A stretch of 36,298 bases of DNA, from assembly GCA_945864305.1 (NCBI GenBank), contig CAMBAJ010000018.1, forward strand, positions 1 through 36,298, read 5' to 3'. The notes under the pieces were generated by a model, which saw only the letters and a list, made by a program, of their open reading frames with translations, was not told the DNA's origin and did not search any database. The stretch comes from an uncultured Clostridia bacterium. GTDB lineage: Bacteria; Bacillota; Clostridia; Oscillospirales; Oscillospiraceae. A program made the position numbers and the translations under genes. Shown piece after piece: positions 8,672 through 32,800 of the stretch. Position 1 is the first letter of the stretch, and each line of letters starts with the position of its first letter.

Positions 8672-9090
8672 CCGCTCACCTCATTTCCGGTGTCCGAATC
8701 GGACACGCCGTCCGCCGTGATCCGCTTCTGGCTGACCTTTGCCAGCGTCAGGTCCAGACTGGGAGGCCATACGCCGTCCACGGTCTGCACCAGGCCGACA
8801 GCGTATTCCTGCCCATCCTCCGTCACGGCGATATCCTGGGCGGCGATGGGTGCCCCTTTCGGCACCCGCACCACCCGCTCCACCTGCACGTTGTTTTGCT
8901 TGGCGGAGTAGTACCGGGTCAGGCCCAGACGACGCTCCTCATAGCGCAGCAGAGCCACCTTCACGGGCTTCGGCTTTGGCATATAGCCGGGCTCCGCTTC
9001 ATCCTTCAGCCGGTAAACGGTCACCAGACCGTCGTTGAAGGTCTGTGTGACCTCATTCCCCGGCCGAAAGGGGAGTTTTCTCGGCGACAT
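8668..9090 (-). CDS. Head closure (stopper) protein, putative
   Basis: A 140-residue protein between the gp6-like connector and the tail-terminator slot, where head-closure proteins are encoded in HK97-type phages. The middle contains RYEERRLGLTRYYSAKQNNVQ, consistent with a small beta-rich joining protein. It overlaps the connector gene by 38 bases. Its last residues read VSDSDTGNEVSG and are encoded over one copy of the recurring 17-bp palindrome (8691-8707). The C-terminal extension therefore may exist because of the DNA site. Confidence 0.7.
   Translation of the reverse strand: MSPRKLPFRPGNEVTQTFNDGLVTVYRLKDEAEPGYMPKPKPVKVALLRYEERRLGLTRYYSAKQNNVQVERVVRVPKGAPIAAQDIAVTEDGQEYAVGLVQTVDGVWPPSLDLTLAKVSQKRITADGVSDSDTGNEVSG
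8691..8707. repeat. 17-bp palindrome GTGTCCGAATCGGACAC, copy 1
   Basis: A perfect palindrome (8 bp arms, one central base) inside the 3' end of the head-closure gene. It is one of five related copies in the window; on the minus strand it is read as VSDSDT. Function unknown. Confidence 0.75.
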
Positions 9091-9385
9091 AGGCTTTCAC
9101 CCGCCTCTCGTTCTGCATTGCCGTCAGCAGATGCAGGTAGTTGTTCTCGAACACGTCCAAGGCGCCATCCCGGAAATAGCGGACATATTCCAAAAGCAAG
9201 GTCCTTCCGTCGCCGTCTTTTGCGTAATCCATCTCCTCGCCGGCCTTTTTGTCCAGATACGCCATCCCGGAGGCGATGAAGCCCAGATACTTTCGATCTG
9301 TGGCTTCATCGCTCCAGGTGACGTCCAGGTGGTTTTTCACATCATCCAGCAGGCCGTAGGAGACGATCTCCTCCCGGCTCAGCAT
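9053..9385 (-). CDS. Head-tail connector protein, gp6-like
   Basis: A 110-residue, mostly helical protein (MLSREEIVSYGLLDDVKNHLDV, then LLLEYVRYFRDGALDVFENN) immediately downstream of the major capsid gene. Length, helix content and position match the gp6-like/gp15-type adaptors that dock under the portal. The start overlaps the capsid stop by one base (TGATG arrangement). Assigned by pattern and synteny. Confidence 0.8.
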   Translation of the reverse strand: MLSREEIVSYGLLDDVKNHLDVTWSDEATDRKYLGFIASGMAYLDKKAGEEMDYAKDGDGRTLLLEYVRYFRDGALDVFENNYLHLLTAMQNERRVKAYVAEKTPLSAGE

Positions 9386-10857
9386 CAGGACTTGGTGACG
9401 GTGACCGTGTAGGTCTTGGTGGTAATGCCGTCCTCAGCCGTGACCGTGATCTCCACAGTGTTGCTGCCATCGGCCCAGGTGATGGAGCTGCCGTTGTCAA
9501 CGCTCTTGCCGCCCACGGTGATATCGACCTTCGCACCGGCGTCGGCGGGCACGGCGTTGATGACGTTGGTGGTGTTGGTGGTGGCCGCGGTGTAAGCCAC
9601 GGTGGAGGCGTTAAATGCGGGAGACAGGGCCGCCGCGCCCAGGCTCAGGGAGGTCAGGGCGGCGTCAGAGCTGGGGGTGGGCAACGTCACCTGGGTTACC
9701 TCGTAGATGGCAGGCCGCAGATCGGAGATATCCAGAACCAGGAAGGCGTTGTTGTCCTTGGGCATACCGTTGGCGTACAGCTTCACCAGGTACAACCGCT
9801 CATCCTCCAGGAAGTGGTACTCGTCGGAGTACTCGATCTTGCCGTCCTTCGCCATGCCGACGGGGGCGAAGTACTTGGCGGCAATGCCCATGACAGCCTT
9901 GCCGCGGGGCAGGGCAAAAGTGGGGATGATGGTCATGGGATAAGGCATCACGTCATTGCGGTAGGTGCCGTCAGGGGCCCGCAGGGTGGTGGCGGGCATC
10001 ACCTTCTGGTAGTAGTCCTGGCCGTTCACGATGAAGACCACACCATTCACAATCCGGGTCTTTCCGTTGGGGCCCATGGCCATGATGCTCAGCAGGTTGC
10101 CGATGGTCACGGGGTCAATGGAGGTCAGCTTGACAGCCGCCTTCTCCGGGTACTTGCCGCCGGTGACGGAGACGCCCTCGCCCACCTGGCGGATCATGCC
10201 GATGGGAGCGTCGGAGCCGTCGCCGTTGATGATGCCGTTCTCCAGGCCGCAGGCCAGTGCCTCCGCCAGAATGGTCCGTACATACCGGTCCAGCCACTCG
10301 GGGCCCAGATCCAGCATGGCCTTGCACACAGGCAAGAAAGCAGACAGCTTGTACAGGGTGTTATTGACCTTCTTGAAGGCGGAGCTCAGTTCCTTGGTGA
10401 TATCGCCGCACAGGGGGCCCCACACCGCCAGCTCCGTGGTGTCGGTGTTCATGATCATCTCGATCAGGCCGCTGGCGTTCTGGAAGTCGATCCGGCTCAG
10501 CAGGGGGTGGTTCTGCTGCAGGTCCTCAAACACGGAGTCGATGACCGTGGTGGGCATCACCGCGTCCAGATTGGTCAGGGCCTGCTTGGGATTGGGACTC
10601 CGCATGGCGTCCATGACCTTCTGGTAATAGGTCTTCTCCTGGCTCGTCAGCTGCCGCACACCCCGCTGGGCCAGCACCTGGATGTCATTGGCCTGCTGGC
10701 CCAGATCGTCGTGCTCCGCCAGCAGCTTCTCTATAAGGGCCTGCATCATGTCCTGCTGGGCCTTGGCAAAAGCCGCCTCGTCGCTGTTCTTGGTGGCCTC
10801 CTGCATGGCCGTCCGGGCGTCATTGATGCGCTGGTTGATGAGCTCCAAATTGTACAT
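9385..10857 (-). CDS. Major capsid protein, HK97 fold, with C-terminal cadherin-like beta-sandwich
   Basis: A 490-residue protein in two parts. Residues 1 to ~390 are an HK97-type capsid protein: an N-terminal helical scaffold-like region (~1-90), then a shell domain with motifs such as NGIINGDGSDAPIGM and a C-terminal axial part (FALPRGKAVMGIAAKYF). From about residue 395 a separate ~95-residue domain begins (SDAALTSLSLGAAALSPAFN, ending TTKTYTVTVTKS), which matches the pattern of the cadherin-like beta-sandwich family (PF12733), normally found in surface proteins. It probably projects from the capsid and may bind glycans. The upstream protease would remove the scaffold region. Confidence 0.92.
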   Translation of the reverse strand: MYNLELINQRINDARTAMQEATKNSDEAAFAKAQQDMMQALIEKLLAEHDDLGQQANDIQVLAQRGVRQLTSQEKTYYQKVMDAMRSPNPKQALTNLDAVMPTTVIDSVFEDLQQNHPLLSRIDFQNASGLIEMIMNTDTTELAVWGPLCGDITKELSSAFKKVNNTLYKLSAFLPVCKAMLDLGPEWLDRYVRTILAEALACGLENGIINGDGSDAPIGMIRQVGEGVSVTGGKYPEKAAVKLTSIDPVTIGNLLSIMAMGPNGKTRIVNGVVFIVNGQDYYQKVMPATTLRAPDGTYRNDVMPYPMTIIPTFALPRGKAVMGIAAKYFAPVGMAKDGKIEYSDEYHFLEDERLYLVKLYANGMPKDNNAFLVLDISDLRPAIYEVTQVTLPTPSSDAALTSLSLGAAALSPAFNASTVAYTAATTNTTNVINAVPADAGAKVDITVGGKSVDNGSSITWADGSNTVEITVTAEDGITTKTYTVTVTKS

Positions 10858-10923
10858 ATGGGTACCATCCTTTCTCTTGTTGAAAATGATAGATATTGAA
10901 ACCGCAACAGCGGTTGGATACAG

Positions 10924-11697
10924 TTACTTCCCGCCGAACATTGCCAGAATGCTCTTCTGCGCCGGTTCCTCAGGTTTGGGTGCCGGCTCAGGCTCCTGGG
11001 GAGGCGTGCTCTGCTGTACCAGCTCCCGCAACTGGGCGGAAAGGCTCTTCTGCAGGTTGATCCGCTGTTCCAGATTCAGATTCGCCTTCTGCAGGACCTT
11101 CGCCGCCTGGCTCATGTCGGCATCCTTCTCGGCGTACCGGTCCGCCAGTCCCAGCCGGATGCAGTCTTCCGCCGTCAGCCAGGTTTCCGCATCCAGCATG
11201 GAGACCAGCTCCTCCTCGCTCAGCTTGTCTCCGGCCTTCTGCAGATACGCCTGGCGGTTTCCCTTGTTGATGGCGTCCAGGTCATCCGCCGCTTTCCGCA
11301 GCTCCGCCGCGTTGCCGCAAGTATACATGTAGGCGTTGTGGATCATCATCATGGCGTTTCGGGGCATCACCACCTCATCGCCCGCCATGGCGATGACGGA
11401 AGCCACACTGCAGGCGAAACCGTCGATATAAACCGTTTTCTTAGCCGGATGGCGCCGCAGCTGGTTATAGATGGCGGTGCCCTCGAATACGCTGCCGCCG
11501 TTGCTGTTGATGTACAGATTGATCTGGCTCACATCCTGGTATTTGGCCAGCTCGTCCCGGAAGTGGTTGGCGCTGGTCTCGCTTTCGATGGTCTGGTCGG
11601 TCCACCAGTCGTATCCATCACCTTCCACGTCTCCGTAGATGTACAGGTCCACGGCACCGGCAGCCGCTGCCTGCTTGAGTTCCCAGAATCTTTTCAT
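10924..11697 (-). CDS. ClpP-like head maturation (prohead) protease
   Basis: A 257-residue protein with the ClpP-type S14 fold used by many phages to process the capsid scaffold. Visible motifs are INLYINSNGGSVFEG near residues 60-75, the nucleophile region DGFACSVASVIAMAGD (Ser in CSVA) near 91-107, and the histidine region MMMIHNAYMY near 116-125. An acidic residue for the triad probably lies in DDLDAINKGNRQAYL. The C-terminal ~70 residues are charged and proline-rich (PPQEPEPAPKPEEP), perhaps a scaffold or linker part. The start overlaps the portal stop (ATGA). It lies between portal and capsid, the usual order. Confidence 0.92.
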   Translation of the reverse strand: MKRFWELKQAAAAGAVDLYIYGDVEGDGYDWWTDQTIESETSANHFRDELAKYQDVSQINLYINSNGGSVFEGTAIYNQLRRHPAKKTVYIDGFACSVASVIAMAGDEVVMPRNAMMMIHNAYMYTCGNAAELRKAADDLDAINKGNRQAYLQKAGDKLSEEELVSMLDAETWLTAEDCIRLGLADRYAEKDADMSQAAKVLQKANLNLEQRINLQKSLSAQLRELVQQSTPPQEPEPAPKPEEPAQKSILAMFGGK

Positions 11698-12863
11698 TCA
11701 GTCTGTTCTCCTTTCAAAACAGTCTCCGCCTTGGCAAAATTCTTGGTAAACAGGTGCTCATTTGCCCAGGGCTCGTTTACGGTGGGCATGCCTACCGCCC
11801 GCTGCACGTCATTGTAGCTGTACCCGCAGCCCATAAGCTTCTCTACATTGGGGGCGTTTGCCAGCAGGTCGAAGTGGTTGATGGTGCTGGTGTCAACCCG
11901 CAGGAAGCTCCCCGACTTCCACCCCTCAAAGCCATAAAGCTTCCGGGTGATCTCCTCACTCAGCTGGTCCGCCAGTGGGTCCACACAGGCCGTCAGGAAG
12001 CGCCCCATGGCGTCCGCCGTCCCCTGGACCTGTCCAAGCAGCAGTACCGGCGGGATGCCGAAGGCGTTGGCCGTGAAGGTGAAGACGTCCTCGTACAGCG
12101 CCCGGATGTCCTTGGCGTCCCGGCCGCCCTCCACCTGCTTGTCCACGTTCTCATACTGCCAGCCGTCCATCTCCGGCAGCACGGCGTAAGCCGCGTTCAG
12201 GAAGGGGTTGATTTGTGCCGTCACCATCTCCTGGAACTGCTCCGCCCAGCCGTCCTCGCCCTGGGCCATCTGGCTGACGTGGACCTTCCAGTGCTGACCG
12301 TTGGAGAAGACGTAATTTCCCTCCGCCGCCTGGATGAGCTTCTGGAAGGACCGGGACACCCCGTCCAGCACCGGCTTGATGTTCACGCCGTGGAGTTCCA
12401 GGTGGAACACATCGTTTTCCCGGAAGGTCTTGTCATAGGTCAGATCGCCCACCATGACGTTCTTGTACTCCCGCTGCTTGTCCGGCCACTTTTCCGGCGT
12501 GAAAAAGCTGTCCGCCACCACATAGGCGGACCTGCCGTTTTTCCGCCGGGTGGGGATTACCAGGACTTCGTTATTGGCGTACAGCTGATGCACCAGTTTG
12601 TGGAGGAACGCTGTGCTGTTCTGGTTGGTGTTGGGGTCAAAATTGAACAGCCAGTAGTACTCGTCAAAGGTCTCCTTCCCACCAAGATACGTCCGAAACT
12701 CGCAGCGCCCCAGGGCGCTGGCGATCATATTCACGCAGCACTGGAAAGCCAGCTCCCGCGCCCGGCATTCCTCCGCCATCCGGCACAGGTCTGCCACAGA
12801 GACCTCCCGGGTCGTCACTTTGCTGTCCTTGCCGATGATGCGCTCCAAAAATTTCAGTGCCAA
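11694..12863 (-). CDS. Portal protein, HK97 family
   Basis: A 389-residue protein between the large terminase and the head protease. The sequence fits the HK97-type portal family in length and pattern: an N-terminal part with CVNMIASALGRCEF, a central stem region with FTFTANAFGIPPVLLLG (conserved 'F-GIPP-LLG' type motif), and a C-terminal helix ending KAETVLKGEQTE. Twelve copies form the DNA entry and exit ring at one capsid vertex. Only four bases separate it from the terminase stop. Confidence 0.92.
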   Translation of the reverse strand: MALKFLERIIGKDSKVTTREVSVADLCRMAEECRARELAFQCCVNMIASALGRCEFRTYLGGKETFDEYYWLFNFDPNTNQNSTAFLHKLVHQLYANNEVLVIPTRRKNGRSAYVVADSFFTPEKWPDKQREYKNVMVGDLTYDKTFRENDVFHLELHGVNIKPVLDGVSRSFQKLIQAAEGNYVFSNGQHWKVHVSQMAQGEDGWAEQFQEMVTAQINPFLNAAYAVLPEMDGWQYENVDKQVEGGRDAKDIRALYEDVFTFTANAFGIPPVLLLGQVQGTADAMGRFLTACVDPLADQLSEEITRKLYGFEGWKSGSFLRVDTSTINHFDLLANAPNVEKLMGCGYSYNDVQRAVGMPTVNEPWANEHLFTKNFAKAETVLKGEQTE

Positions 12864-12867
12864 AGTC

Positions 12868-14550
12868 TCACCTCCTCAAAACGATCACGGGAGGCGGCTC
12901 CGACGGCGGTATCCCGCTTCCCAGCAGCGGCTCAATGACCATGCTGGCCACCAGCGCCATAAAGGGGTCCGTCTTCCGGCTCTTCGCCTCGATCTTCGCG
13001 TAAATAAAATTGCCGGTGTCCACACCGATGCTCCGGCTTGCCCGGACGCGCTTCGTGTTGTTCACCGCCCACCGCAGGTGGGGGACATTGCCCCAGGTAA
13101 ACAGCTCCCGGTCGAAGCAGTCCTGGATCACCGGTTCCACCTGCATGATGTCGCTGGGCCGAACCAGCTTTACGTTCTTCCGGTCCTTTGGGTCAAATCC
13201 GATCTTTTTCAGGCTCTCGCTCACCAGCGTCCACCGGTAGTGGTCCATAGCCAGTCCCTTGATGACATATTTGGTGGCTGCCGCCTGGATAAATCCGGCC
13301 AGGAGATCCGGGTGGATGCTCACGTCGTCCACCACCGTGATGTCTCCCTTGGCCGCCCAGTCCCGCCACGGAGCCTTGACCCGTGTCAGGGTCTTGCTCT
13401 GGGCGCAGACCCAGGCGTGGTTGATATCAAACCGCTGGTCTCCCCGCCGGAAGTGGAGATTCATCGCCGCCCAGTCGGAGATATCGGCGTAGTCAAGGCC
13501 AACCGTGCAGGCCATGCCGTACAGGCTTGGCAGCTCCCGGTTGGTCACCAGCACCTTGTCGTAGTCCGTCACGGCGATCTCAGCGGACTGGACCCGCAGG
13601 CCCATCCGCTTGGTCAGAAAGTCCGGGTTCCGCTCCGGATACTCCAGCCAGTCGTGATACTCCTTCTCCGTCTCATGCAGCAGGCTTTCGCTGTACTGCA
13701 GGGACGGATTGGCCATGTACCAGTTCTCAGGATCGTGTACCTGCTCCTTGTCGTGCAGGCAGCAGATAAACGGCAGGAACCCCCGGTCTGCCTCCCCCTC
13801 AAAGAGGATGCGGCGCCCCTGGGCCAGGAAGTCATCCAGCGGCCCATCGGAGATCTTGCCGTTGGATGTGAAATACCCGGTACGGGGATGAGGGACCTTG
13901 CCCTGGCCGGTGCGGAACACCGTGATATTGTCGTAGCTTTCGTACTGGTGGACCTCATTGAAAATGGCCTTCCCGGTCCGCATACCGTCCCGGCTCTTGG
14001 GGTTGTTGGTCCGCCCCCGGACGCTTCCCCGGTTTTTCAGCCCCTGGACCACTTCCTTGGTATGGTAGAAATGCTTTTTCAGCTTGTCCAGTTGTCCTGG
14101 CGTCTCCAGGACCTCCACCAGGTCCTTCAGCGGCCGTGTGGCCTGCTCCTCCAGGTTTGCGCAGATATCCACGTCATACCGAGGGCTGCTCTCGCAATAG
14201 GGTGAAACGGAGCACATGGAGTCGAAGGAGAGGTATCCGTCTTTTCCGGCGCCCCGGCCGATCATGCAGAACACCGTGTCCCACCTGGGAAGTCCGCTGT
14301 CGTCCCAGTAGGTGCAGTCCCACAGGGCCGTCAAGAACTTCTCCCAGGGATACAGCTTGAAGGGGAAGTACTTCTCCAGCTTCAGGTAGTTCGCCAGCTG
14401 CTTGGTGTCCACATGGATGGCCTCGGTCTCGAAGCACTTTCGGATGTAAGCACAGAGTGCGTGCTGTTCCGGGCAGGCCCGGTACGGTCCGTTCTCCACC
14501 AGCTCGATGTAATCCAGGACCTCCGGCGGCATCTTACAGGTCATCGTCAT
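12868..14550 (-). CDS. terL: Terminase large subunit
   Basis: A 560-residue packaging motor. The ATPase Walker A-like loop MIGRGAGKDGYLS is at about residues 96-108, and a Walker B-like segment (GKAIFNEVHQYES) lies near residue 200. The C-terminal nuclease half contains TVGLDYADISDWAAM with the first acidic residue of an RNase H-type site, and DDVSIHPDLL later. It translocates DNA into the prohead and cuts it. The gene overlaps the small subunit by 17 bases; a second in-frame ATG two codons later is an alternative start. Confidence 0.95.
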   Translation of the reverse strand: MTMTCKMPPEVLDYIELVENGPYRACPEQHALCAYIRKCFETEAIHVDTKQLANYLKLEKYFPFKLYPWEKFLTALWDCTYWDDSGLPRWDTVFCMIGRGAGKDGYLSFDSMCSVSPYCESSPRYDVDICANLEEQATRPLKDLVEVLETPGQLDKLKKHFYHTKEVVQGLKNRGSVRGRTNNPKSRDGMRTGKAIFNEVHQYESYDNITVFRTGQGKVPHPRTGYFTSNGKISDGPLDDFLAQGRRILFEGEADRGFLPFICCLHDKEQVHDPENWYMANPSLQYSESLLHETEKEYHDWLEYPERNPDFLTKRMGLRVQSAEIAVTDYDKVLVTNRELPSLYGMACTVGLDYADISDWAAMNLHFRRGDQRFDINHAWVCAQSKTLTRVKAPWRDWAAKGDITVVDDVSIHPDLLAGFIQAAATKYVIKGLAMDHYRWTLVSESLKKIGFDPKDRKNVKLVRPSDIMQVEPVIQDCFDRELFTWGNVPHLRWAVNNTKRVRASRSIGVDTGNFIYAKIEAKSRKTDPFMALVASMVIEPLLGSGIPPSEPPPVIVLRR

Positions 14551-14851: not shown

Positions 14852-15449
14852 GCTGTCCGCTCCTTTCCCGCGGCCCTCTGCCGGGAGGCCGGCCGTTGGT
14901 TGACCGGTCCCGGTGGGTGAAGAGTTGGACGGTGGCAAGCCGCCCGGCAGAAAGCCGCGTGTTTGATTTAGGTCATCCAGCGCATCCCCCAGCCGTGAGG
15001 CCGGGGAGGAAAGAAAGAAAAGCAACATGCCAGCTATCAAAGCTGGGGGATACGCTGGAGCATCGTCCGGTCCGCTCCCCGGCCCTGAGAGGTGTCTGCA
15101 GGGCGCGGGGCAAGGAGGAAATACTATGGCCGGCTCAACGCCGGGGACCGGATCGGACAGGACTTCTCTTGGCGCCGCGCTCCCGCAGCGCCCTGGTCAA
15201 ATCCGCCGCAGATCCGCAGCGGAGGCCTTTCGTGCCAGAATCGGGCACACTTTCGGGTTATCCCGTGATTTTGCGCTGTTTTGGAAAATTCAGGCCGTTT
15301 CAGGCTTGTTTTTCCGAAATTGGCCCGCCGTTTTCGGGCCCGCGCACGTCGCGGCACCGCGCGGGCCCGAGAATTTCTCCCTTGTCCCGGACCCTATGCG
15401 ATTGGACCCGGTGTTGCCTTTTTCGTTTTTTCGGACCCGGGGTATGTGG
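14852..15449. other. Non-coding region with inverted repeats, candidate packaging (cos) site
   Basis: About 600 bases between HNH and terS hold no convincing gene; open frames here on both strands are low-complexity. Two inverted repeats stand out. One has 18-base arms at 14976-14993 and 15042-15059 with one mismatch and a 48-base loop. The other has perfect 12-base GC-rich arms at 15334-15345 and 15359-15370. GGACCC repeats occur at 15389, 15404 and 15433. In cos phages the site usually lies next to terS and an HNH protein often assists cleavage, so a packaging site is inferred. Confidence 0.45.
15334..15370. repeat. Strong GC-rich inverted repeat, 12-bp arms
   Basis: TCGGGCCCGCGC (15334-15345) and GCGCGGGCCCGA (15359-15370) are perfectly complementary around a 13-base loop. 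No T-run follows on the plus strand, and only TTTTC on the minus strand, so it is not an obvious terminator. It lies in the intergenic region before terS. Confidence 0.75.
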
Positions 15450-16178: not shown

Positions 16179-16919
16179 CTAAATATAAAGCACTGTTTTT
16201 GGCTCGATGTACGAGTAGTAATAATAGACCCCGAATTCATTGGGCACACACTCCGGTCCGGCAGGGCTGCTCCTCCAAAATGCTTCCCTTGGCACCGGGA
16301 TGGAGCCTGACGGATCTTCCCACCGCTCCGCTGGCGGAAGCTTAGCCCGCAGACACCGGCTGCAGCTCCAGGCATGGCGCCCCACCGGAAGGAAGAATCC
16401 ATCAGAGCGTTCCTTGTTGAAATACTTGGCAAGACGCCGGTATCCGCCCGTCTTCAGGAGCACTGGAAAATCCTCCACTGTCCCGCCTTTCCAAAGGTAA
16501 CGCACCTCGGCCGGGGAAAACTCGCTGTCCCGCAGGATCAGGTGCACATGATACCGGCAGTGCTGAGAGCCATATTCGATGGCATAGATGTAATCGAAAG
16601 CCATGTTACCCCGCCATCGTTTGCATCTTCTGAAGAACGACGTCAAAGCCGTTCGCACATCCTGGAAGCGGCTAGGCAGATGCTCGTCATCGAAAGATAA
16701 CTCATAATGGCTCCCCTCATAGCCAAACAGGGCCAGCATCAGCTCCAGCTGATCAACAGGCCCATGGCAGACCGCTGAGCGAATCCGTTTTTTGAGTGCG
16801 TTCTTCTCTGCCGTCGTATACGGGTCATCGTCCTTGCTGAGTCTGGGTCGCAGGGCCCGGCACTCCTTGACCAGAGGCCCGGCCCGTTGGCGGGTACAAT
16901 ACCAAATCGCATCAGGCAT
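16179..16919 (-). CDS. HUH-type replication-associated protein (Rep/G2P-like)
   Basis: A 246-residue protein; the ATG at 16919 is chosen because GGGAGG lies six bases upstream. The region YIYAIEYGSQHCRYHVHLIL holds the H-hydrophobic-H metal motif of rolling-circle initiators, and GGYRRLAKYFNKERSDG further on carries two tyrosines spaced like a catalytic Tyr motif. These fit replication-associated proteins of inoviruses and small plasmids (ORF2/G2P type). The C-terminus is tyrosine-rich (GVYYYYSYIEP). Its sequence looks more A+T-rich than neighbours toward the 3' end. A nicking role is inferred; whether it serves this phage is unclear given the DnaB replication set. Confidence 0.75.
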   Translation of the reverse strand: MPDAIWYCTRQRAGPLVKECRALRPRLSKDDDPYTTAEKNALKKRIRSAVCHGPVDQLELMLALFGYEGSHYELSFDDEHLPSRFQDVRTALTSFFRRCKRWRGNMAFDYIYAIEYGSQHCRYHVHLILRDSEFSPAEVRYLWKGGTVEDFPVLLKTGGYRRLAKYFNKERSDGFFLPVGRHAWSCSRCLRAKLPPAERWEDPSGSIPVPREAFWRSSPAGPECVPNEFGVYYYYSYIEPKTVLYI

Positions 16920-17087
16920 GAATAGCCTCCCAATATCATTCGTCGAAATGCCGAGAATCAACACGACTGGCACAATTCATTTTATTTTTACTCATAATGT
17001 CCTCGTTTAAATCACATTTTTCGTGCAAACCGCTTATGGAAAGTTTTATTGGCCCGTGGTAAGCTGAGCAAAAAGGAGGTGAGAAGA

Positions 17088-17336: not shown

Positions 17337-17346
17337 TACGATTTAC

Positions 17347-17378: not shown

Positions 17379-17389
17379 ACTTAGTCGCT

Positions 17390-18975: not shown

Positions 18976-19376
18976 AACGGCAGCTCTCCTTTCTCATCGT
19001 CCGGAAGCTCATGGAGCTCCCCGGAAGGTTCTGCCGGCGTATCCGAATCGGACACTTTCTTGCTGTCGCCGAAGTACACGTTGTCGGCGATGACCTCGTA
19101 GCTGCGGCGCTTGTTGCCGTCCTTGTCCGTCCAGTCCTCCATCTGGAGGCGGCCCTCCACCACGGCCATGCGGCCCTTGGAGAAGTACTTGAACACGAGC
19201 TCCGCCGTGGAGCGCCAGGCCGTGCAGTCGATGAAGTCCGTCTCCTTTTCCCCGGCCTGGTTCTTGTAGTCCCGGTCCACAGCCAGGGAGAAGGATGTCA
19301 CCGGCGTTCCGCTTGCGGTCTTGCGCATCTCCGGGTCCCGAGTCAGGCGGCCCATAAGGAAAATTTTATTCAGCAT
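18972..19376 (-). CDS. ssb: Single-stranded DNA-binding protein
   Basis: A 134-residue SSB with the usual OB-fold start (MLNKIFLMGRLTRDPEMRKT), the core TDFIDCTAWRSTAELVFKYF and EGRLQMEDWTDKDGNKR. The C-terminus is acidic and ends DDEKGELPF, a variant of the partner-binding tip. It protects single-stranded DNA in phage replication. The linker contains VSDSDTP, encoded over palindrome copy 2. The start has AGGAGG upstream, inside a short AGGAGGTCCTCC palindrome. Confidence 0.95.
   Translation of the reverse strand: MLNKIFLMGRLTRDPEMRKTASGTPVTSFSLAVDRDYKNQAGEKETDFIDCTAWRSTAELVFKYFSKGRMAVVEGRLQMEDWTDKDGNKRRSYEVIADNVYFGDSKKVSDSDTPAEPSGELHELPDDEKGELPF
19039..19055. repeat. 17-bp palindrome, copy 2 (one mismatch)
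   Basis: GTATCCGAATCGGACAC inside the ssb linker; one base differs from copy 1. On the minus strand it is again read as VSDSDT. Confidence 0.7.
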
Positions 19377-20095: not shown

Positions 20096-20242
20096 TCATT
20101 CGGGTCTTTTATCGGTCATGTCCTTTCCGCGCTTCTCGGCCCAGGCCGCCAGAACAGAAAGCACATACAGATCATCAGGGTCCGTGGTCTTGATGGGATT
20201 TCCACAGCAAGGGCACGGGTCACCGGGCTTCAGAATTTTCAT
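20096..20242 (-). CDS. 48-residue zinc-knuckle-like protein
   Basis: MKILKPGDPCPCCGNPIKTT contains a CPCCG cluster and the rest is helical (LYVLSVLAAWAEKRGKDM). The ATG at 20242 has GGAGG six bases upstream and lies inside the end of the ParB-like gene. About 140 bases downstream (19956-20095) hold no convincing gene start. Function unknown. Confidence 0.65.
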   Translation of the reverse strand: MKILKPGDPCPCCGNPIKTTDPDDLYVLSVLAAWAEKRGKDMTDKRPE

Positions 20243-21755
20243 TGTTTTCCTCCGAACTCTCATATTCCGGCAGCCGCATCCAGACAAGCGGCTGCAATCT
20301 GGCATCGACACCGCCAGGCGTCAGAAGCCAGTCCGTTCCATCCCACCAAAGAGCCTTCGGTGTAGGCTCACCTGCCAGCGGCATCATGCACACGCACCAC
20401 CCGGACTCGTGCCCCGGATTCGTCCCGCCGGGCATCCAGCCGCAAATGGCAAGCTGACCCTCCGGCTGCACCGCCGATACGATTTCACCATAGGGATTAT
20501 CGGACAGTCCCAGTAAATAATCAGCAGTGACGCCCAGGCATTTTGCTGTGGCGATAAGCCTATGAGCATCACTAAGATAAAAGCCATATTGGCCAAATGG
20601 TAGTTGCGTGTCTGTCCGAATTTTCTGGAGAGACTCTTTTTCCAACCAGCTCTGCTCATTAGCCTCACTGTAATAACTTTGCGTTGCCGAAAACAGTTGC
20701 TTAACCGATTTTCCAGAGGCAGTTCGGGCTGAAGATTCCCGGCGCCAGTATCCAGAAATTTCTTCAATTGTTGGTTTATCCTTTGCTGCTTTTGCCTCCC
20801 TCTCCTGTGCGTTTTGAGCCCGTCGGTCTGCCCGGAGTCGTTTTACCTTTTCAGTCAACAGAGGGCAAGCTACCTTGCAGGATGCTAAATTATCGCACTT
20901 ATCGCAGCATATACGGTCACACGGCTTATACCCATAGTTACCGTCAAAAAGCTTATTCAGCATAGCAGTCTTATGGGTGCAGGCAGCACCAGACTGCTTT
21001 TTGCATTTACGTTCCATGACTGGCTTGATTTTGCCAATCGTGTTATTGACCTGCCACTCAGAAAGGTACTGGATATCCTGTTTATCAGTATATTTACGGA
21101 CAATCTTTTGGATTTCTGGAGGCTGCTGGGCCAATACGTAAGCGCTGGCTTCCTTGAGAGTTCCGGCTTCGTAATATTTGGAAAACTCCGGAATCAGATT
21201 ATCCCTGATCACCTTCAGGCGGGCTAGTTTTGTCTTGCTCACCTTGCAGGCCTCGGCAACGTGATCCCGCATCCTCCCTGGAAACTCATACCCTTCTTCC
21301 TTCAGTTGATACAGCAGAGCCTCCACACGCTCCGCCTGCTTGCTAATCTCTGCGGAGCTCAGGTTACGTGTATCACTATTTGCGTAAATGAGACGCAGCT
21401 CCTGCAGGGCAGCAGAGCCTTCCGATCGCTCCCGAATACATGGGATCTCCCGCAGATCTTCACGTCCAGCGTCCACCAACTGCCGAATTGCAGCCCGGCG
21501 ACGATGTCCGGAGACAATGATGACGCGGCGTGCGTCCTGCGGGTTGGATCGTACCCGAATGGGCTGCTGTAAGCCAAATAGCTCAATGTTTGCCGCCAAC
21601 TCATCCAGCTGTGACAGCTCGTAAAAATTTTTAGGATCGTCGTCGATCTGTTCGATGTCGATGTACTCGATCTGCTCCCGGCCTGTGTCCGATTTGGACA
21701 CGCCGACATTCAGGGTTTTGGCGAACTCGCCTAGGTCCAGTTTTTTCCCGGCCAT
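20220..21755 (-). CDS. ParB-like partition/nuclease-domain protein with C-terminal extension
   Basis: 511 residues from an ATG at 21755 (GGAGG seven bases upstream; GTG at 21761 is an alternative). Residues ~25-130 form a ParB N-terminal domain with the motif IIVSGHRRRAAIRQL. A helix-turn-helix region follows (VAEACKVSKTKLARLKVI near 165-185). The middle has a Cys cluster (CDRICCDKCDNLASCKVACP). The C-terminus, with WCVCMMPLAGEPTPKALWW and DGTDWL, resembles DUF551-type domains. It may bind DNA with the ParA partner encoded upstream. The N-terminus contains VSKSDTG over palindrome copy 4. Confidence 0.85.
   Translation of the reverse strand: MAGKKLDLGEFAKTLNVGVSKSDTGREQIEYIDIEQIDDDPKNFYELSQLDELAANIELFGLQQPIRVRSNPQDARRVIIVSGHRRRAAIRQLVDAGREDLREIPCIRERSEGSAALQELRLIYANSDTRNLSSAEISKQAERVEALLYQLKEEGYEFPGRMRDHVAEACKVSKTKLARLKVIRDNLIPEFSKYYEAGTLKEASAYVLAQQPPEIQKIVRKYTDKQDIQYLSEWQVNNTIGKIKPVMERKCKKQSGAACTHKTAMLNKLFDGNYGYKPCDRICCDKCDNLASCKVACPLLTEKVKRLRADRRAQNAQEREAKAAKDKPTIEEISGYWRRESSARTASGKSVKQLFSATQSYYSEANEQSWLEKESLQKIRTDTQLPFGQYGFYLSDAHRLIATAKCLGVTADYLLGLSDNPYGEIVSAVQPEGQLAICGWMPGGTNPGHESGWCVCMMPLAGEPTPKALWWDGTDWLLTPGGVDARLQPLVWMRLPEYESSEENNENSEAR
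21685..21701. repeat. 17-bp palindrome, copy 4 (one mismatch)
   Basis: GTGTCCGATTTGGACAC inside the parB-like N-terminus, read on the minus strand as VSKSDT. A partition protein might bind a site in or near its own operon, so this copy could be a centromere-like site. Confidence 0.7.
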
Positions 21756-21757
21756 GC

Positions 21758-22540
21758 TCACACCTCCCCCAAGAGCTCATTCACCCAGGAGCGGTAGTCC
21801 TGGGATGCCGCGCTGCCGGGGCTGTACGACACGATGGGACTGCGGTCAAAGGTGCTCTCCGGCACCTTGTCTGTCCGGCGTATCACCGTACCGAATACCG
21901 ACAGCCCCAGGCTCCGCACCAGCTTCTCACCCTGATGCACCACGTCGGCGTTGTGCCACTGGTTGATCAGCACGCCGGTGATGCGAATATCAGCGTTGGC
22001 CTCCCGCATACTGGCGATCTGCTCCTCCATGTCCGTGATGCCGTCGAAGTTGAAGCCGTCCATCACCATGGGGATGATCACCTCACTGGCCGCCAGCAGG
22101 GCCGCGCAGGAAGATGTGGTGAAGCCCGGAGGGCAGTCGAACAGCAGGAAGTCAATGCTGCCGTCCTCCTCGATGGCCATTCGGAAATCCCGCAGGGCTT
22201 TGATATGTACCGCCTGCCGCTCCTCCGCGTTTCCCATGATGGCCGCCACGTCCAGCCGGTACAGCGCCGGGGTACTGGGCAGCAGCAGGAAGTCCTCGCT
22301 GACCTCCTGCACGTTGTCGTCCCAGAGAGGTTCACCCTCTCCCAGAAGCAGGTCCCGGACGGTGATGACATCCTCCAGGTTGGTGTGTGGCAGCAGGAAC
22401 CGGGAAGCGTTCCGCTGTCCGTCGCAGTCCACCAACACAACCTTCTTGCCGTGGTCGCGGACCAGGATGTCCGCCAGGTTGATGGCGGTGACGGTCTTGC
22501 CGACGCCGCCCTTATTGTTCATGATCGCTATCGTTCTCAC
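21758..22540 (-). CDS. parA: ParA-like partition ATPase
   Basis: 260 residues from a GTG at 22540 that has GAGGAGG eight bases upstream. The deviant Walker A MNNKGGVGKTVTAIN lies near residues 7-21, Walker A' VVLVDCDGQRNASRF near 35-49, and Walker B FLLFDCPPGF near 130. These are signatures of the Soj/ParA family, which positions plasmid or prophage DNA with a ParB partner encoded immediately downstream. In an integrating phage this may act on the excised or replicating form. Confidence 0.93.
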   Translation of the reverse strand: MRTIAIMNNKGGVGKTVTAINLADILVRDHGKKVVLVDCDGQRNASRFLLPHTNLEDVITVRDLLLGEGEPLWDDNVQEVSEDFLLLPSTPALYRLDVAAIMGNAEERQAVHIKALRDFRMAIEEDGSIDFLLFDCPPGFTTSSCAALLAASEVIIPMVMDGFNFDGITDMEEQIASMREANADIRITGVLINQWHNADVVHQGEKLVRSLGLSVFGTVIRRTDKVPESTFDRSPIVSYSPGSAASQDYRSWVNELLGEV

Positions 22541-22553
22541 GCTCAAATCCTCC

Positions 22554-24953: not shown

Positions 24954-25046
24954 TCACCCTCTCTCGATCACATCGATCACTCGGAACAACTGGGCCACAG
25001 TCCAGGTTATTCCAATCAGCACAAACGCAAACTCCACATTGCTCAT
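24954..25046 (-). CDS. 30-residue single-pass membrane peptide
   Basis: MSNVEFAFVLIGITWTVAQL then FRVIDVIERG. The ATG at 25046 has GGAGGTGA upstream. One membrane helix covers most of the peptide. It lies between the HTH gene and the initiator gene and fits the coupled gene chain. Function unknown. Confidence 0.6.
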   Translation of the reverse strand: MSNVEFAFVLIGITWTVAQLFRVIDVIERG

Positions 25047-25636
25047 GGAAGAGTCACCTCCTCCCGGCCAAACTTTGGGCTTGCATTCCGCCGCCGATGT
25101 GCTATAATAATTTTGCTATCGTTCTCGGATGCAAGTCCCTGAACCGAACGCCTTGTGGTTGCCGCCACGGGGCGTTCTTTTTTTGTCTCCGGCGGCGCAT
25201 CAGACGTGTACTTCACCTGCAGCGCCGCGCCCACGATGCCGTCCAAATCCCGGCAGATGTCGTCAAAGTCCGGCCGTTCCGTCTCGTCGATGATGCCGTC
25301 CTCCGCGATCCGCAGCAGCTGCCGGTCCCTGTGGCGTTCCGCGAAGTTCAGCACCCGGTTGATCAGGGTGATGGCCGCCGTCGGCAGGCTCTGCACGGTC
25401 ACCTCCGGCAGCACACCCAGGGCGCCACCCGCCTGTTTCAGATGCTCCAGAGCCAGCCACGGCGTGCCGTACAGCTCCGCCATCCGGGCTACCGTCTCGT
25501 TGTCCGGCACCCGCGCTCCCTGCTCCCAGGCCTTGACGGTGGTCTCCGAGACCCCCAGCCGTTCCGCGGCCTGTTCCTGGGTCAGACAGCTCTCTTTCCG
25601 GGCCGCCTGGTAGATATTCGGTCCGTTTGTCAGCAT
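25043..25636 (-). CDS. XRE-family HTH regulator
   Basis: 197 residues. The helix-turn-helix CLTQEQAAERLGVSETTVK spans about residues 17-35, with the XRE ending AWEQGARVPDN. The rest is a helical effector-like region (TLINRVLNFAERHRDRQLL). The last ~50 residues are basic and low in structure (VAATTRRSVQGLASEN, HRRRNASPKFGREE), and their DNA contains a full promoter-to-terminator unit on the plus strand (25081-25184), so the C-terminus may be shaped by the RNA gene. An early regulator or replication-linked role is inferred. Confidence 0.88.
   Translation of the reverse strand: MLTNGPNIYQAARKESCLTQEQAAERLGVSETTVKAWEQGARVPDNETVARMAELYGTPWLALEHLKQAGGALGVLPEVTVQSLPTAAITLINRVLNFAERHRDRQLLRIAEDGIIDETERPDFDDICRDLDGIVGAALQVKYTSDAPPETKKERPVAATTRRSVQGLASENDSKIIIAHRRRNASPKFGREEVTLP
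25081..25108 (+). promoter_or_regulatory. Sigma-70-type promoter for the antisense small RNA
   Basis: TTGCAT (25081-25086), a 16-base spacer, and a perfect TATAAT (25103-25108). Start of transcription would be near 25115. Confidence 0.7.
25115..25184 (+). ncRNA. Predicted ~70-nt antisense small RNA
   Basis: Between a good promoter (25081-25108) and a strong terminator lies a ~70-base unit on the plus strand, antisense to the 3' part of the XRE gene at 25043-25636 and just upstream of the replication initiator operon. The 3' end is a 13-pair stem (25146-25158 with 25165-25177, two G-U pairs, six-base loop) followed by seven T's. No open frame with a ribosome binding site is present. It may control the overlapping mRNA or act on another target. 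The call rests on promoter, terminator and spacing only. Confidence 0.65.
25146..25184 (+). terminator. Rho-independent terminator of the antisense small RNA
   Basis: GAACGCC...GGCGTTC extended by TTGTGG/CCACGG pairing gives a 13-bp stem with loop TTGCCG, then TTTTTTT at 25178-25184. The T-run is only on the plus strand. Confidence 0.85.
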
Positions 25637-27482: not shown

Positions 27483-27551
27483 GACGCTGTCCTCCTTTCT
27501 TTTTGAACTTGTTTTGAAAAGGCTCATAACTTCTAGGAACGAGGTCATTTC

Positions 27552-28026: not shown

Positions 28027-28074
28027 GCTAATTTTCATAAATTTAGAAACTTTGTTGAATATAACTAAATTTAG
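28005..28074. repeat. A/T-rich operator cluster for the CI-like repressor
   Basis: Three related sites: TTTCTAAATTTAGAAA (28005-28020, perfect palindrome), TTTCATAAATTTAGAAA (28033-28049, one extra base) and CTAAATTTAG (28065-28074, overlapping the repressor ribosome binding site). A partial copy GAATTTAGAATT lies over the start codon. They sit between the leftward promoter and the repressor gene, the expected place for operators giving both repression and autoregulation. Confidence 0.75.
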
Positions 28075-28086: not shown

Positions 28087-28584
28087 ATGAATTTAGAATT
28101 ACTTGATAGGAACATTGCCGCACTTTGCAAAATTAAAAACGTCCCCAAAACTACCGCATTTCGTGAAGCTGGTGTTGGGATCAATTTTTTGAACAACATC
28201 AAAAGCGGCAGTGCCCCATCCGTCGAGAAGGTCCAAAAGCTCGCCCAGTACCTGGGAGTCACCACATCAGAGCTTCTTGGCGAGGACTACATGAAGCCCA
28301 CGGAATGTCAAGTGATGGATATCCACTTCGTTGAGGACGTCTCCGGTTCCATGACCGGGCCAAGCCTTTCTGAGGAAGCCCTGGCAGTTGCCCGCAGCTT
28401 TGACCAGGCCGACGACAAGAGCCGGGCGATGGTCCGCCTCGCCCTGGGCCTGGATGATGATATGGCCATCGCCGCCCGGGGCGGCAGGGTTGTAAAAAAG
28501 CCCAGCGCGGTCAGCGCCGAAACGCTGGACGAGCTGAGCAGAGCCACCGAGGAGGCGGCAAAAAAAGAAAACGATAACTATTGA
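28087..28584 (+). CDS. CI-like XRE-family repressor
   Basis: 165 residues. Residues ~5-70 form an XRE domain (IAALCKIKNVPKTTAFREAG, INFLNNIKSGSAPSVEKVQ, LAQYLGVTTSELLGEDYM). The C-terminal part is helical and charged (LARSFDQADDKS type, then VSAETLDELSRATEEA); no S24 peptidase domain is present, so it is not a LexA-type self-cleaving repressor. Operators lie directly upstream. Its stop overlaps the end of the ImmA-like gene on the other strand by seven bases. Derepression by the peptidase is plausible. Confidence 0.9.
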   Translation: MNLELLDRNIAALCKIKNVPKTTAFREAGVGINFLNNIKSGSAPSVEKVQKLAQYLGVTTSELLGEDYMKPTECQVMDIHFVEDVSGSMTGPSLSEEALAVARSFDQADDKSRAMVRLALGLDDDMAIAARGGRVVKKPSAVSAETLDELSRATEEAAKKENDNY

Positions 28585-29183
28585 CCGCTCTTAACGCGGT
28601 CGATGTACGGCTGGAACTGAGCCAGCACCTGCCGCTCCAGCGGTGAGGCGCCGTATTTGCCCCGCTGATCCAGCACCCCCATGCGGCCGGCGCGGAACCG
28701 GGCCGCCGCCAGGGAGATGTCACACACCGCCGCGATCCGCTCCGGCGTCACGGCCCCCAGCGCGTGAAGCACGCAGGCCGGGGCCAGCAGCCGGGACGCG
28801 AACACATTGGCCGTGTGCTCCTCCGGGGCGTCCTCCGGGGACGGCTCCCGGTTGTAAACCGTGTGTTCTCCGTCGCCCAGGTGTCCCAGCAAGATATGGC
28901 CCAGCTCGTGGGCAATGGTGAACCGCACCCGGCCCGGTGGCTGTTCTATGTTATAGAACACATAACAGCGACCGCCGCTGCGAACGGAAAAACCGTCGCT
29001 GGCCCCGCATTGGGCCTCCAGGCCCAGCGCCCGAATCAGCGGCGCCCCGGCCTGGTAGCTCCGCAGTGTCACGCCGTAGGCCCCGCAGATCCGCGAGACC
29101 TTCACCGGCAGCTCCCGCGTGCCGGTGTCCAGTAAAACCCGCCAGGACAAGTCCCTGGCCTGCTTGTAGTCGTCATAGTTCAT
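28578..29183 (-). CDS. ImmA/IrrE-type metallopeptidase
   Basis: 201 residues with the zinc motif RFTIAHELGHILLGHLGDG (HEXXH) near residues 87-105 and a downstream EEHTANVFASRLLAP that supplies the third ligand (E). In ICEBs1 and related elements this enzyme cleaves the XRE repressor on damage. Here it is convergent with the repressor gene rather than in an operon with it. GAGGAGG lies upstream of the ATG. The N-terminal DYKQARDLSWRVLLDTG is a helical family start. Confidence 0.93.
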   Translation of the reverse strand: MNYDDYKQARDLSWRVLLDTGTRELPVKVSRICGAYGVTLRSYQAGAPLIRALGLEAQCGASDGFSVRSGGRCYVFYNIEQPPGRVRFTIAHELGHILLGHLGDGEHTVYNREPSPEDAPEEHTANVFASRLLAPACVLHALGAVTPERIAAVCDISLAAARFRAGRMGVLDQRGKYGASPLERQVLAQFQPYIDRVKSGQ

Positions 29184-29281: not shown

Positions 29282-29298
29282 GTGTCCGAATCGGACAC
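29282..29298. repeat. 17-bp palindrome, copy 3 (perfect, in 5' leader)
   Basis: GTGTCCGAATCGGACAC, identical to copy 1. It is 21 bases upstream of the start of the 29320 gene and outside any likely coding sequence, so its conservation is not due to a protein. It could be an operator. Confidence 0.8.
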
Positions 29299-30072: not shown

Positions 30073-31116
30073 ATGAAAAAGCGGACGGACGGCCGATATC
30101 AATCGAATATTACCATCACGGACGCCCTGGGCAACAAGAAGCGTAAGACCTTCTACGGGAAATCTCCGGCGGAAGTCCGGCGGGCCATCTTGGCATTTAC
30201 TGGCGAACAGGCCCAGGGGCCGACGCTCAAAGAGGTCTGTGATGAGTGGCAGGTCGAGGAGGGAGGAGACGTCCGGTACAACACCCAGGTCTGCTACAAA
30301 AAGCCCACAGAGGACGTCCTGGAGGCCTTTGGCCCCCGCCGCATCCGGGAAATTACCACGCTCCAGATTGAGGCATTCCTCCGCCAGCTGGCCAAGAAGG
30401 GTTTCGCCCGGCAGACTGTCCGGGTGCGCCTGGTTGTGTTAAACCGCATCTATAAGTACGCCCTGCGCCACGCGTACGTGGAGACCAACCCGGCGGCCTC
30501 TGCGGAGCTGCCGCCGGGGCTGACCGCCAAGAAGCGGGAAATGCCGTCCGATGACATCCTGGAGAGGATCAGCAAGCTCCCTCCCAAGGGCTTTACCCTG
30601 CTCCCCATCCTGCTGTACTACACCGGCTGCCGGCGGGGTGAGGCCATGGCCCTGGAATGGAGCGACATCGACCTGAAAAACCGTGTTATCCACATCACCA
30701 AGGAGGTAGAGTACCACGGCAACACGCCGGTGGTCGTCAATCACACCAAGAGTGAGGCCGGGTACCGGGACATCATTATCCGCCTGAAGCTGCTGGAGCT
30801 GCTGCCCAAGCGCAAAAAGACTGGCTACCTATTCCCGGGCAAAAATGGCGGACTGATGACAAAGGGAGAGCTGATCGAGTGGTGGGACGGCCTGCACCTG
30901 GGCGTCACGCCCCACCAGCTGCGCCACGCCTATGTGACAGAGCTGTACGAGGCCGGCGTGGACGCTGAGTTGGCCATGACCCAGACCGGCCATGCAGACA
31001 TCAAGACCATGCGCGGGATCTACACCCACATCCGGGACAGCCAGAAGGACAAGGCAAAAACCCTGCTGGACGCCTACGATGCTCCGCCGGCAGAAAAACC
31101 AGAAGAGAAAAAGTAG
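30073..31116 (+). CDS. int: Tyrosine integrase
   Basis: 347 residues with an N-terminal arm-binding part (MKKRTDGRYQSNITITDALG), a SAM-like core-binding domain (ITTLQIEAFLRQLAKKGFA) and a catalytic domain. Catalytic residues seen: Arg in YTGCRRGEAMALEWSD (~residue 190), a Lys candidate in HTKSEAGYRD, His-x-x-Arg in HQLRHAYVTELY, His in TGHADIKTM, and the Tyr in MRGIYTHIRDS. It inserts the phage at a tRNA-Ser gene whose 3' half is next to the gene. The stop overlaps the first arm-type repeat. Confidence 0.95.
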   Translation: MKKRTDGRYQSNITITDALGNKKRKTFYGKSPAEVRRAILAFTGEQAQGPTLKEVCDEWQVEEGGDVRYNTQVCYKKPTEDVLEAFGPRRIREITTLQIEAFLRQLAKKGFARQTVRVRLVVLNRIYKYALRHAYVETNPAASAELPPGLTAKKREMPSDDILERISKLPPKGFTLLPILLYYTGCRRGEAMALEWSDIDLKNRVIHITKEVEYHGNTPVVVNHTKSEAGYRDIIIRLKLLELLPKRKKTGYLFPGKNGGLMTKGELIEWWDGLHLGVTPHQLRHAYVTELYEAGVDAELAMTQTGHADIKTMRGIYTHIRDSQKDKAKTLLDAYDAPPAEKPEEKK

Positions 31117-31165: not shown

Positions 31166-31229
31166 TATGATTGGAAATCATGTAGGCCCCTAAAGGGTCT
31201 CGAGGGTTCGAATCCCTCCTTCTCCGCCA
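31166..31229 (+). other. 3' half of tRNA-Ser(GGA), the integration target
   Basis: From the anticodon arm (stem TATGA/TCATG with loop TTGGAAA, anticodon GGA) through a variable arm to the T arm (GAGGG/CCCTC around TTCGAAT) and acceptor end with CCA (31227-31229). No D arm lies upstream, so it is not a complete tRNA. On integration it should replace the host 3' half and restore a functional tRNA-Ser. Confidence 0.85.
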
Positions 31230-32287: not shown

Positions 32288-32297
32288 GTGTACCTCC

Positions 32298-32498
32298 TCA
32301 ACCGACAAAATTTGTGTACTCTTCCCTGCCGTCCGCATGCATGTAGAAGTCTGCGGTCTCCCCGTTCTTTCCTTCGGGGTGAATGGTCAAAAGCAGCAGG
32401 TCCGGTTCTTTTTCGTTCATGTCAGTGACCGCCACAGTGAAATCACCGTGAAAATGGTCCATGTTCTTTGCGATGTACTCATAGATATTTTTGTACAT
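32298..32498 (-). CDS. Small phage protein, unknown function
   Basis: 66 residues from an ATG at 32498 with AAGGGGG upstream: MYKNIYEYIAKNMDHFHGDF, then DLLLLTIHPEGKNGE and ADGREEYTNFVG. Soluble, no domain recognised. It lies between the two membrane protein genes of the lysis region. Confidence 0.65.
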   Translation of the reverse strand: MYKNIYEYIAKNMDHFHGDFTVAVTDMNEKEPDLLLLTIHPEGKNGETADFYMHADGREEYTNFVG

Positions 32499-32512
32499 GG
32501 TATGTACCCCCT

Positions 32513-32800
32513 TCATAAATCTCCCGTGTCCGAATCGAGCACATTTCCCATGGCGGCGTCGTAGGTGATGCCGCCTTTTGTGTTCTCCGCTTTGGCCTTG
32601 TGGAAATAGGCCGTCAGCACCACGCCTGTGACGGCCTGCAGCGCGCCGATGAGGGTAGTCAGGTACGGCAGTGCCCCCTCGTAGGCCCGCAGAATGGACA
32701 GGGCACACAGACCAAGCACGGCGAAGGTAGCGGCGGCGTCCACCTTCAGCACCCAGAGGGCAATGGTCTGGCTGGTGGTCTTGCGGCTCCGCCTTGCCAT
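32513..32800 (-). CDS. Membrane protein, second holin-like candidate
   Basis: 95 residues with two membrane helices (AAATFAVLGLCALSILRAY and LTTLIGALQAVTGVVLTAYF) and a basic start (MARRSRKTTSQT). It ends with VLDSDTGDL over palindrome copy 5. Its first codon overlaps the stop of the upstream gene. It could be a holin, antiholin or tail-associated membrane protein. Confidence 0.75.
   Translation of the reverse strand: MARRSRKTTSQTIALWVLKVDAAATFAVLGLCALSILRAYEGALPYLTTLIGALQAVTGVVLTAYFHKAKAENTKGGITYDAAMGNVLDSDTGDL
32526..32542. repeat. 17-bp palindrome, copy 5 (degenerate)
   Basis: GTGTCCGAATCGAGCAC; two bases differ from copy 1. It lies in the 3' end of the membrane protein gene and is read as VLDSDT on the minus strand. 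Confidence 0.6.

Follow-up and report, generated by a model that had tools for sequence, protein, structure and literature searches.

A 17-bp palindrome dispersed over a phage contig and linked to parA-parB genes: putative parS-like sites of a phage-encoded ParA-ParB system

The DNA analysed here (the window) is the entire contig C18, 36,298 bases long, from a 98-contig, 2.24 Mb assembly of an uncultured Clostridia bacterium, and its gene content indicates a temperate siphophage. Scattered over the window are copies of a 17-bp palindrome, GTGTCCGAWTCGGACAC, which in this phage and in related loci is linked to the genes of a ParA-type ATPase and a ParB-like protein. We suggest, with a probability of about three in four, that these palindromes serve the phage-encoded ParA-ParB system as dispersed parS-like sites. 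A ParB-type site was one of several options raised in an initial annotation of this DNA, and it is the one supported by the comparisons below; one of the copies falls within the beginning of parB itself.

The palindrome is found at 7 distinct places in the window when up to three mismatches are allowed (13 matches with both strands counted; Table 1). At the same threshold, 100 dinucleotide-preserving shuffles of the window gave a mean of 0.11 matches and a largest value of 2, which confirms the earlier view that the recurrence is beyond chance. All five copies of the initial annotation are present, and its tally of two perfect copies (8690 and 29282) and three with one (19039, 21685) or two changes (32526) is correct, but the first of them starts at 8690 and not at 8691, and the copies at 4128 and 15232 had been overlooked. 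A further match at position 1557, four changes from GTGTCCGAWTCGGACAC, is a doubtful copy. The statement that copies lie at the ends of unrelated genes applies to 8690 and 32526, but not to 19039, about 21 codons before the stop of the SSB gene, nor to 21685, at the 5' end of parB. The copy described as lying in a non-coding leader (29282) is in a probable leader, given our choice of 29320 as start of the SHOCT gene; this ATG is preceded by a GGGAG resembling a ribosome-binding site, and a longer open reading frame (ORF) starts at 29218. As had been noted, the copies in genes share one reading frame: all five are read in a single frame of the minus strand, as VPDLDT (4128), VSDSDT (8690 and 19039), VSKSDT (21685) and VLDSDT (32526). 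The sites are placed at gene ends and in linkers probably because an insertion of VSDSDT is tolerated there. Over 9 genomes the spacing of the sites was more even than chance, none of 20,000 simulations being as even, in a test on related genomes that were hand-picked for at least 3 sites and treated as circular, with two weak sites included; P values for single genomes ranged from 0.002 to 0.74. Within the half-sites position 7 is either G or A, and symmetric double changes were only slightly above expectation.

In the host assembly every copy with up to two mismatches falls in the phage contig, and the reversed word gave no match at this threshold in the 2.24 Mb. Among 300 host-family genomes, that of the phage's own host included, 6 held the exact word, compared with 0 for the reversed control. 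In IMG/VR at least 120 stretches contain the exact word and none the reversed one. The contigs of GTDB gave at least 119 stretches with the exact word, a figure without a reversed control, and some of these matches, such as those to large genomes of actinobacteria, may be due to chance. The scan of host genomes and related phages that had been proposed as a check thus finds the word scarce in hosts and present in relatives. Neither of the two distributions named as telling against the idea, an equal density in host chromosomes and absence from close relatives, was found. A literature search for four literal 17-mers of the palindrome yielded no paper with any of them.

The linkage to parA-parB was approached from the protein, from the word and from a third gene. 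In the following, a strict copy is a match to the pattern GTGYYCRANTYGRRCAC. The peptides used in the search from ParB excluded the peptide encoded by the site. Among the nine viral loci obtained in this way (33-49% identity), eight have a copy at up to three mismatches and the ninth (L130) only at four, and eight of the nine whole viral contigs carry 1-6 strict copies; the reversed strict pattern had 0 matches in the 28 contigs searched. Four named phage records encode a ParB relative. Three of them hold strict copies, in each case with one inside parB (Cormatin, 4; MT835558, 5; MT836068, 2), and MT838970 has only a relaxed copy, just ahead of parB. In Cormatin (ON453905), whose host is Flavonifractor plautii of the OMM12 laboratory consortium, the four sites are at 15329, 21480, 23600 and 28505.

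The set selected by the word comprises 239 loci, 60 of them with a ParB ORF. In 27 of these 60 loci the start of the parB match has an exact copy no more than 60 bp away (expected 1.05; 19 of 39 ParB clusters after clustering at 80% identity), and in 30 of 60 the same is true of the end of the parA ORF (expected 1.05). The corresponding counts at the start and end of other genes were 0 and 0 for Rep (52 loci), 0 and 1 for the XRE regulator (XRE197; 19 loci), 0 and 1 for DnaB (22), 0 and 0 for the initiator (18), 0 and 2 for the integrase (19) and 0 and 1 for CI (2). The preferred position of the site is thus the parA-parB junction or the start of parB, and ParB is the candidate with a preferred site position. 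Distant ParBs have their copy at the parA end or between parA and parB (e.g. L087 and L079 of IMG/VR), and so do L200 and L184 (Paenibacillus alvei), which match the L087 and L079 loci. Of the word-selected loci with ParB, 33 of 34 viral ones and 23 of 28 from genomes also encode ParA. When the ORFs in the vicinity of exact copies are grouped, those of ParB form the largest group (49 of the 247 loci).

From the first 80 of the at least 120 IMG/VR stretches, 40 whole contigs were picked, mostly for length and not blind to the ParB matches known by then. ParB is encoded in 27 of these, but since 16 were known from the stretches beforehand, the informative figure is that of the contigs not previously known to encode it, 11 of 24. 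Two or more copies of GTGTYCRANTYGRACAC occur in 20 of the 40 contigs: 16 encode ParB, two (G376 and G379) encode ParA and a DUF3102 protein, and two (G362 and G387) none of the three. Of the 20 single-copy contigs, 11 encode ParB. G362 has two exact copies only 49 bp apart (L017:2676-2741).

The third set, here called the TerL panel, was fetched by terminase similarity, independently of the word (85 loci, 0.95 Mb). It contains 17 strict copies and 0 reversed ones, and strict copies are present in 3 of 6 loci with ParB, compared with 6 of the 79 without it (P 0.014, Fisher test). Seven of the 25 panel contigs of at least 18 kb have the word: G303 and G336 with a strong ParB, G314 with ParA and DUF3102, and four partial contigs (G315, G328, G329 and G332) in which neither ParB nor ParA was matched. 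ParA, ParB and DnaB were absent from the parts of these four that were compared, namely positions 1 to 20,000 for G315 and G329 and the full length for G328 and G332; G315 extends as far as a Rep match. These four contigs decide little about the ParB link. A panel contig with DUF3102, G322, has no copy of the word.

What is preserved at the sites is the DNA, as the initial annotation had proposed. We compared 25 parB genes, and a copy, in some cases degenerate, lies in the first codons of 24 of them, and also in those of Cormatin and MT835558; the number of residues ahead of it varies from about 10 to 16. The site is written GTG TCC in 24 of the 25, with L250 as the exception. Since 14 of these genes had been fetched through the word, the fair count is that of the 11 fetched without it, in which Val is GTG and Ser is TCC in 11 of 11. 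At codon usages of 0.54 for GTG and 0.36 for TCC this has a chance of about 1.5e-8 if the genes are taken as independent, which, being related, they are not. The site is met in different contexts: within parB codons, at the end of parA, in linkers, at the ends of genes and in one probable leader. Furthermore, the central base pair of the site (C/G or A/T) tracks the subtype of the helix-turn-helix (HTH) region of ParB, with counts of 13:1 for the SAP/SAS type and 3:24 for the others (P 4e-7 by site), as counted by hand in loci selected by ParB or by TerL and not by the word.

A profile built from 28 of the ParBs matches the Noc structure 7ol9 at E 3.6e-17, ParB structures as well, and KorB weakly (0.0067). 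The alignment has a conserved VSxxKLARLKVIR region, for which no HTH model matched, and near-invariant cysteines in the C-terminal half (C255, C279, C280, C283 and C293 in alignment numbering; window 20220-21000, minus strand). By eye, this half of the window protein also shows a stretch SxDYLL of XRE type and a tail resembling DUF551, and a ParB of another locus (L087:6825-7706) has a C-terminus that matches the Lar restriction-alleviation domain (PF14354, 1.9e-8).

Three features expected of a ParABS system are present: a gene for a ParA-type ATPase next to parB, an N-terminal CTPase-fold domain in ParB (by sequence profile) and an inverted-repeat site at or near parAB. The window also shares with dispersed-site ParB systems of the N15 and RP4 type the scattering of several copies over the replicon. 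In the mechanism we propose, a ParB dimer would read the two GTGTCC(G/A)A half-sites and, by analogy with ParB, Noc and KorB, would form a CTP-dependent clamp that loads there and spreads into the neighbouring DNA. With about 7 loading sites over 36 kb, ParB could cover much of the excised or replicating phage molecule, and the coated DNA might then allow ParA to move or separate the copies.

Several observations weigh against this assignment. The copy in parB is lost in L250, and in L130 the peptide is retained with altered DNA. The association of the central base with ParB subtype comes from few clades, so that the events are not independent. No ParB was found in 13 of the 40 word-selected whole contigs, and 10 of these are without DUF3102 too; three TerL-panel contigs with a more distant ParB-like gene (E 9e-49 to 7e-44) have no palindrome; and G314, with 5 copies, ParA and DUF3102, has no ParB match. 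As a single protein the window ParB scores under the curated cut-offs (25.2 vs 26.3 bits for PF02195; 38.9 vs 58.45 for TIGR00180), and it is therefore best regarded as a divergent family member. Rep, a DNA-binding protein, is nearly as widespread as ParB. Finally, parAB of the window sits among replication genes, which bears on the time of its expression.

The contigs without ParB led to DUF3102 as a further lead. ParA stands beside a DUF3102 protein, with no ParB match, in G314 (5 strict copies; selected by TerL) and in G376 (5) and G379 (2), both selected by the word. The G376 protein starts with MAKFDMGEFAKTL, and AKFDMGEFAKTL is common to it and to the ParBs of L129 and L137. A search by DUF3102 similarity found 119 loci, and among the best 80 of them strict copies were present in 8 of 20 with an adjacent ParA and in 3 of 60 others (P 4e-4; reversed 0); three of the eight are the seed contigs of the idea, and without them the counts are 5 of 17 and 3 of 60 (P 0.011). 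An N-terminal peptide of the KFDMGEFAKTL type accompanied the palindrome in 4 of 10 against 7 of 70 DUF3102 loci (P 0.027), an association that disappeared without the three seeds (1 of 7 against 7 of 70, P 0.55); the peptide pattern is narrow and matched 43 of 83 ParB ORFs. The 12 of 20 ParA-adjacent loci without a strict copy showed no other scattered palindrome family in the 10 that were searched. In one locus, L394, a tight array of a different palindrome with TGTCGG-type arms was seen (7045-7126; region to 7142), without the 17-bp word, and it is a candidate centromere of its own ParA-DUF3102 group. Homology between DUF3102 and ParB is unsupported (hhalign probability 0.6%, E 0.1). A role of DUF3102 as reader of the palindrome is thus partly supported, as a lead and not a result. 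It is tempting to speculate, and we regard this as possible but rather doubtful, that the same palindromic centromere is read by ParB and, in some ParA-linked phages, by DUF3102 (PF11300), two unrelated kinds of protein that would be alike only in an N-terminal ParA-docking peptide, and that ParAB serves an unintegrated or lytic stage, in which clamps or their counterparts on the spread sites cover the excised genome, and not the maintenance of the lysogen. A literature search found no paper joining DUF3102 with ParA and phage, and this uncharacterised family gains a testable hypothesis.

Among other explanations, the one that survives best leaves ParB as the reader but makes transcription control at a distance its main job, with clamps blocking lytic or late transcription in the manner of KorB. 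A number of sites fall on gene boundaries, in some cases directly ahead of a ribosome-binding site, and the head-tail adaptor gene has a site at its 3' end or within about 50 nucleotides of it in 6 of 8 phages read (the window, Cormatin, MT835558, G314, G328 and G332; absent in G315 and G336). KorB on RK2 silences promoters up to 1.5 kb from its operators (PMC11790492). Yet gene ends may simply tolerate insertion, and silencing alone needs no ParA, which most of the ParB loci encode; we consider this explanation possible but rather doubtful.

It is unlikely that the palindromes are stoperators or operators of a phage repressor, be it the CI-like protein (28087), the XRE regulator (25043) or the product of a small gene near 26550 that by eye is of HTH type. 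An odd-centred palindrome of 17 bp is about as long as operators of the lambda type, G314 encodes the XRE regulator but not ParB, and precedents exist in SPbeta MrpR and the Rep of cluster A phages. However, the CI-like gene has AT-rich upstream repeats of its own, CTAAATTTAG (window 28008-28074), which are probably its operators; three matches were reached in 2 of 100 shuffles. The XRE regulator was found in 8 of 60 word-selected ParB loci and the CI-like gene in 2 word-selected loci, there is no exact copy at the start of either gene, and the ORFs most frequent near exact copies are those of ParB. The XRE regulator is present in G314 and in phages near the window, but with so few of the ParB loci and no copy at its start it was rejected as a general reader. 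No genetic link of the sites to a regulator was seen. The option of stoperators, which the initial annotation had listed first, thus fits less well than that of a ParB-type site.

A similarly small chance is given to Rep, ParA or another protein common to the ParB and DUF3102 phages as the reader. In word-bearing phages ParB and the DUF3102 proteins alike usually have ParA as their partner, but the 262 amino acids of ParA contain, by Pfam, the ATPase domain only. Rep was found in 35 of 60 word-selected ParB loci and in G314, and also in distant loci such as L087, L096 and L122. These three include 6-10 kb upstream of parB, and neither the XRE regulator nor the initiator nor DnaB turned up in them. 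Co-occurrence therefore cannot separate Rep from ParB, but position does, as there is no exact copy near either end of Rep in the 52 loci, and Rep was set aside on this ground. Some ParB loci, e.g. L221 with 5.5 kb upstream, gave no match to Rep, though the loci are short.

The palindrome would by inspection form a 7-bp stem in RNA, but a hairpin in transcripts is very improbable, as sense-strand pairing is not preserved: in the sense direction of 24 parB sites the non-Watson-Crick pairs comprise 7 mismatches and 6 G-U pairs, and the window parB site has an A-C mismatch. Least probable of all is a small mobile repeat or host motif, in spite of the copies in unrelated genes: the absence from the rest of the host assembly and the count of 6 in 300 family genomes contradict a host regulator site, and by eye the copies share nothing in their flanks beyond the palindrome itself.

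Among the known systems close to the parS-like sites are ParB proteins of dispersed sites. N15 and RP4 are plasmid replicons, while the window phage has an integrase and attP, and ParB and site differ. N15 SopB and RP4 KorB belong to the ParB superfamily and have short inverted repeats dispersed over their replicons (PMC5016525), and the window shows the same combination. By analogy, the window system may work like the dispersed-site ParB of N15 and RP4, and possibly like KorB in silencing. Noc and chromosomal ParB provide the closest solved structures to the phage ParB by sequence, but the phage system has a different site, a dedicated ParA and an additional Cys-rich C-terminal part. The parABS of cluster A mycobacteriophages (RedRock) likewise consists of phage-encoded ParA, ParB and parS, but it replaces the integration cassette, and parS of RedRock is made of two loci of eight direct 8-bp repeats (PMC7157519), whereas the window phage has an integrase and single palindromes over the whole genome. 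Stoperators of cluster A phages (L5 Rep) also occur in many copies throughout a temperate phage genome. They are 13-bp sites, mainly in one orientation to transcription, in up to 30 copies and read by the repressor (PMC6550527), in contrast to the window sites, which are palindromic and thus without such orientation, number about 7 and are linked to parB. The SPbeta element SPBRE is, too, a repeated prophage element bound by one phage protein, MrpR, but according to PMC10516654 its peaks are in promoter regions and it is read by a recombinase-like repressor. A 2025 survey of the ParB fold includes phage ParB-like proteins, and the portion of it available does not describe these sites (PMC12704722).

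ParABS in a phage is usually taken as the sign of a plasmid prophage without integration. Here, the 63 bp of attP are identical to part of a tRNA-Ser(GGA) gene that stands intact on another contig, C9, of this assembly, and the phage contig was hence assembled apart from its likely attB. Integrase, attP and the intact attB point to integration, although the phage contig itself is unintegrated, and with integrase and attP in the phage, ParAB is not a replacement for integration. Other loci with ParB and the word lie on long contigs, e.g. of 1.43 Mb in P. alvei (L184) and 5.43 Mb in Sporofaciens musculi (L212). For Cormatin, no integrase was found among 62 annotated features; its virome coordinates 1,128,657-1,164,096 fall in the F. 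plautii genome assembly, and Cormatin gave no 3C signal there (PMC10197239). ParAB with dispersed sites in a phage with integrase and attP, and in Cormatin, raises the question of what an integrating phage would gain from partition or ParB spreading. Such phages can be searched for simply by means of the word, and the pairs of ParB and site, which covary by subtype, form a natural set for studies of ParB specificity.

Table 1. Positions of the palindrome copies and of selected genes in the window
Feature	Position	Strand	Remark
Palindrome, two changes	4128..4144		Near 3' end of tape measure gene
Palindrome, perfect	8690..8706		3' end of head-tail adaptor gene, 18 nucleotides ahead of next start codon
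Weak palindrome, three changes	15232..15248		Between HNH and terminase small subunit genes
Palindrome, one change	19039..19055		C-terminal tail of SSB, about 21 codons short of stop
Palindrome, one change	21685..21701		Within 5' coding part of parB (VSKSDT)
Palindrome, perfect	29282..29298		Probable leader, 21 nucleotides ahead of likely start (29320) of SHOCT gene
Palindrome, two changes	32526..32542		3' end of small lysis-region gene
parB-like gene	20220..21761	-	ParB N-terminal (CTPase-fold) domain, HTH-like region, Cys cluster, C-terminal part without assigned function
parA-like ATPase gene	21758..22546	-	262 amino acids; AAA_31 3.9e-29; directly upstream of parB
Replication initiation protein (Rep)	16179..16973	-	No palindrome copy at either end; common across phages
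Second HTH regulator (XRE, phrog_6499)	25043..25636	-	Set aside as general palindrome reader
CI-like HTH_3 regulator	28087..28584	+	Own CTAAATTTAG repeats at 28008, 28037, 28065
Tyrosine integrase	30073..31116	+	
attP	31167..31229	+	63 bp, identical to 3' part of the tRNA-Ser(GGA) gene of contig C9

The minus strand of the window holds the tail, head and packaging genes. Its other genes include those of Rep, SSB, ParB, ParA, DnaB, an initiator, regulators, an M78 protease, a tyrosine integrase and a CHAP endolysin. An overlap of the contig ends was looked for and none was found; a reading frame of 421 codons spans the joined ends, which would fit a circular map. The CI-like and M78 protease genes (28087-29183) are convergent and do not form one operon. 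Beside the regulators, on the minus strand, lies a Tad2-like (Thoeris anti-defence 2-like) domain (27258-27635; PF11195, E 4.5e-8).

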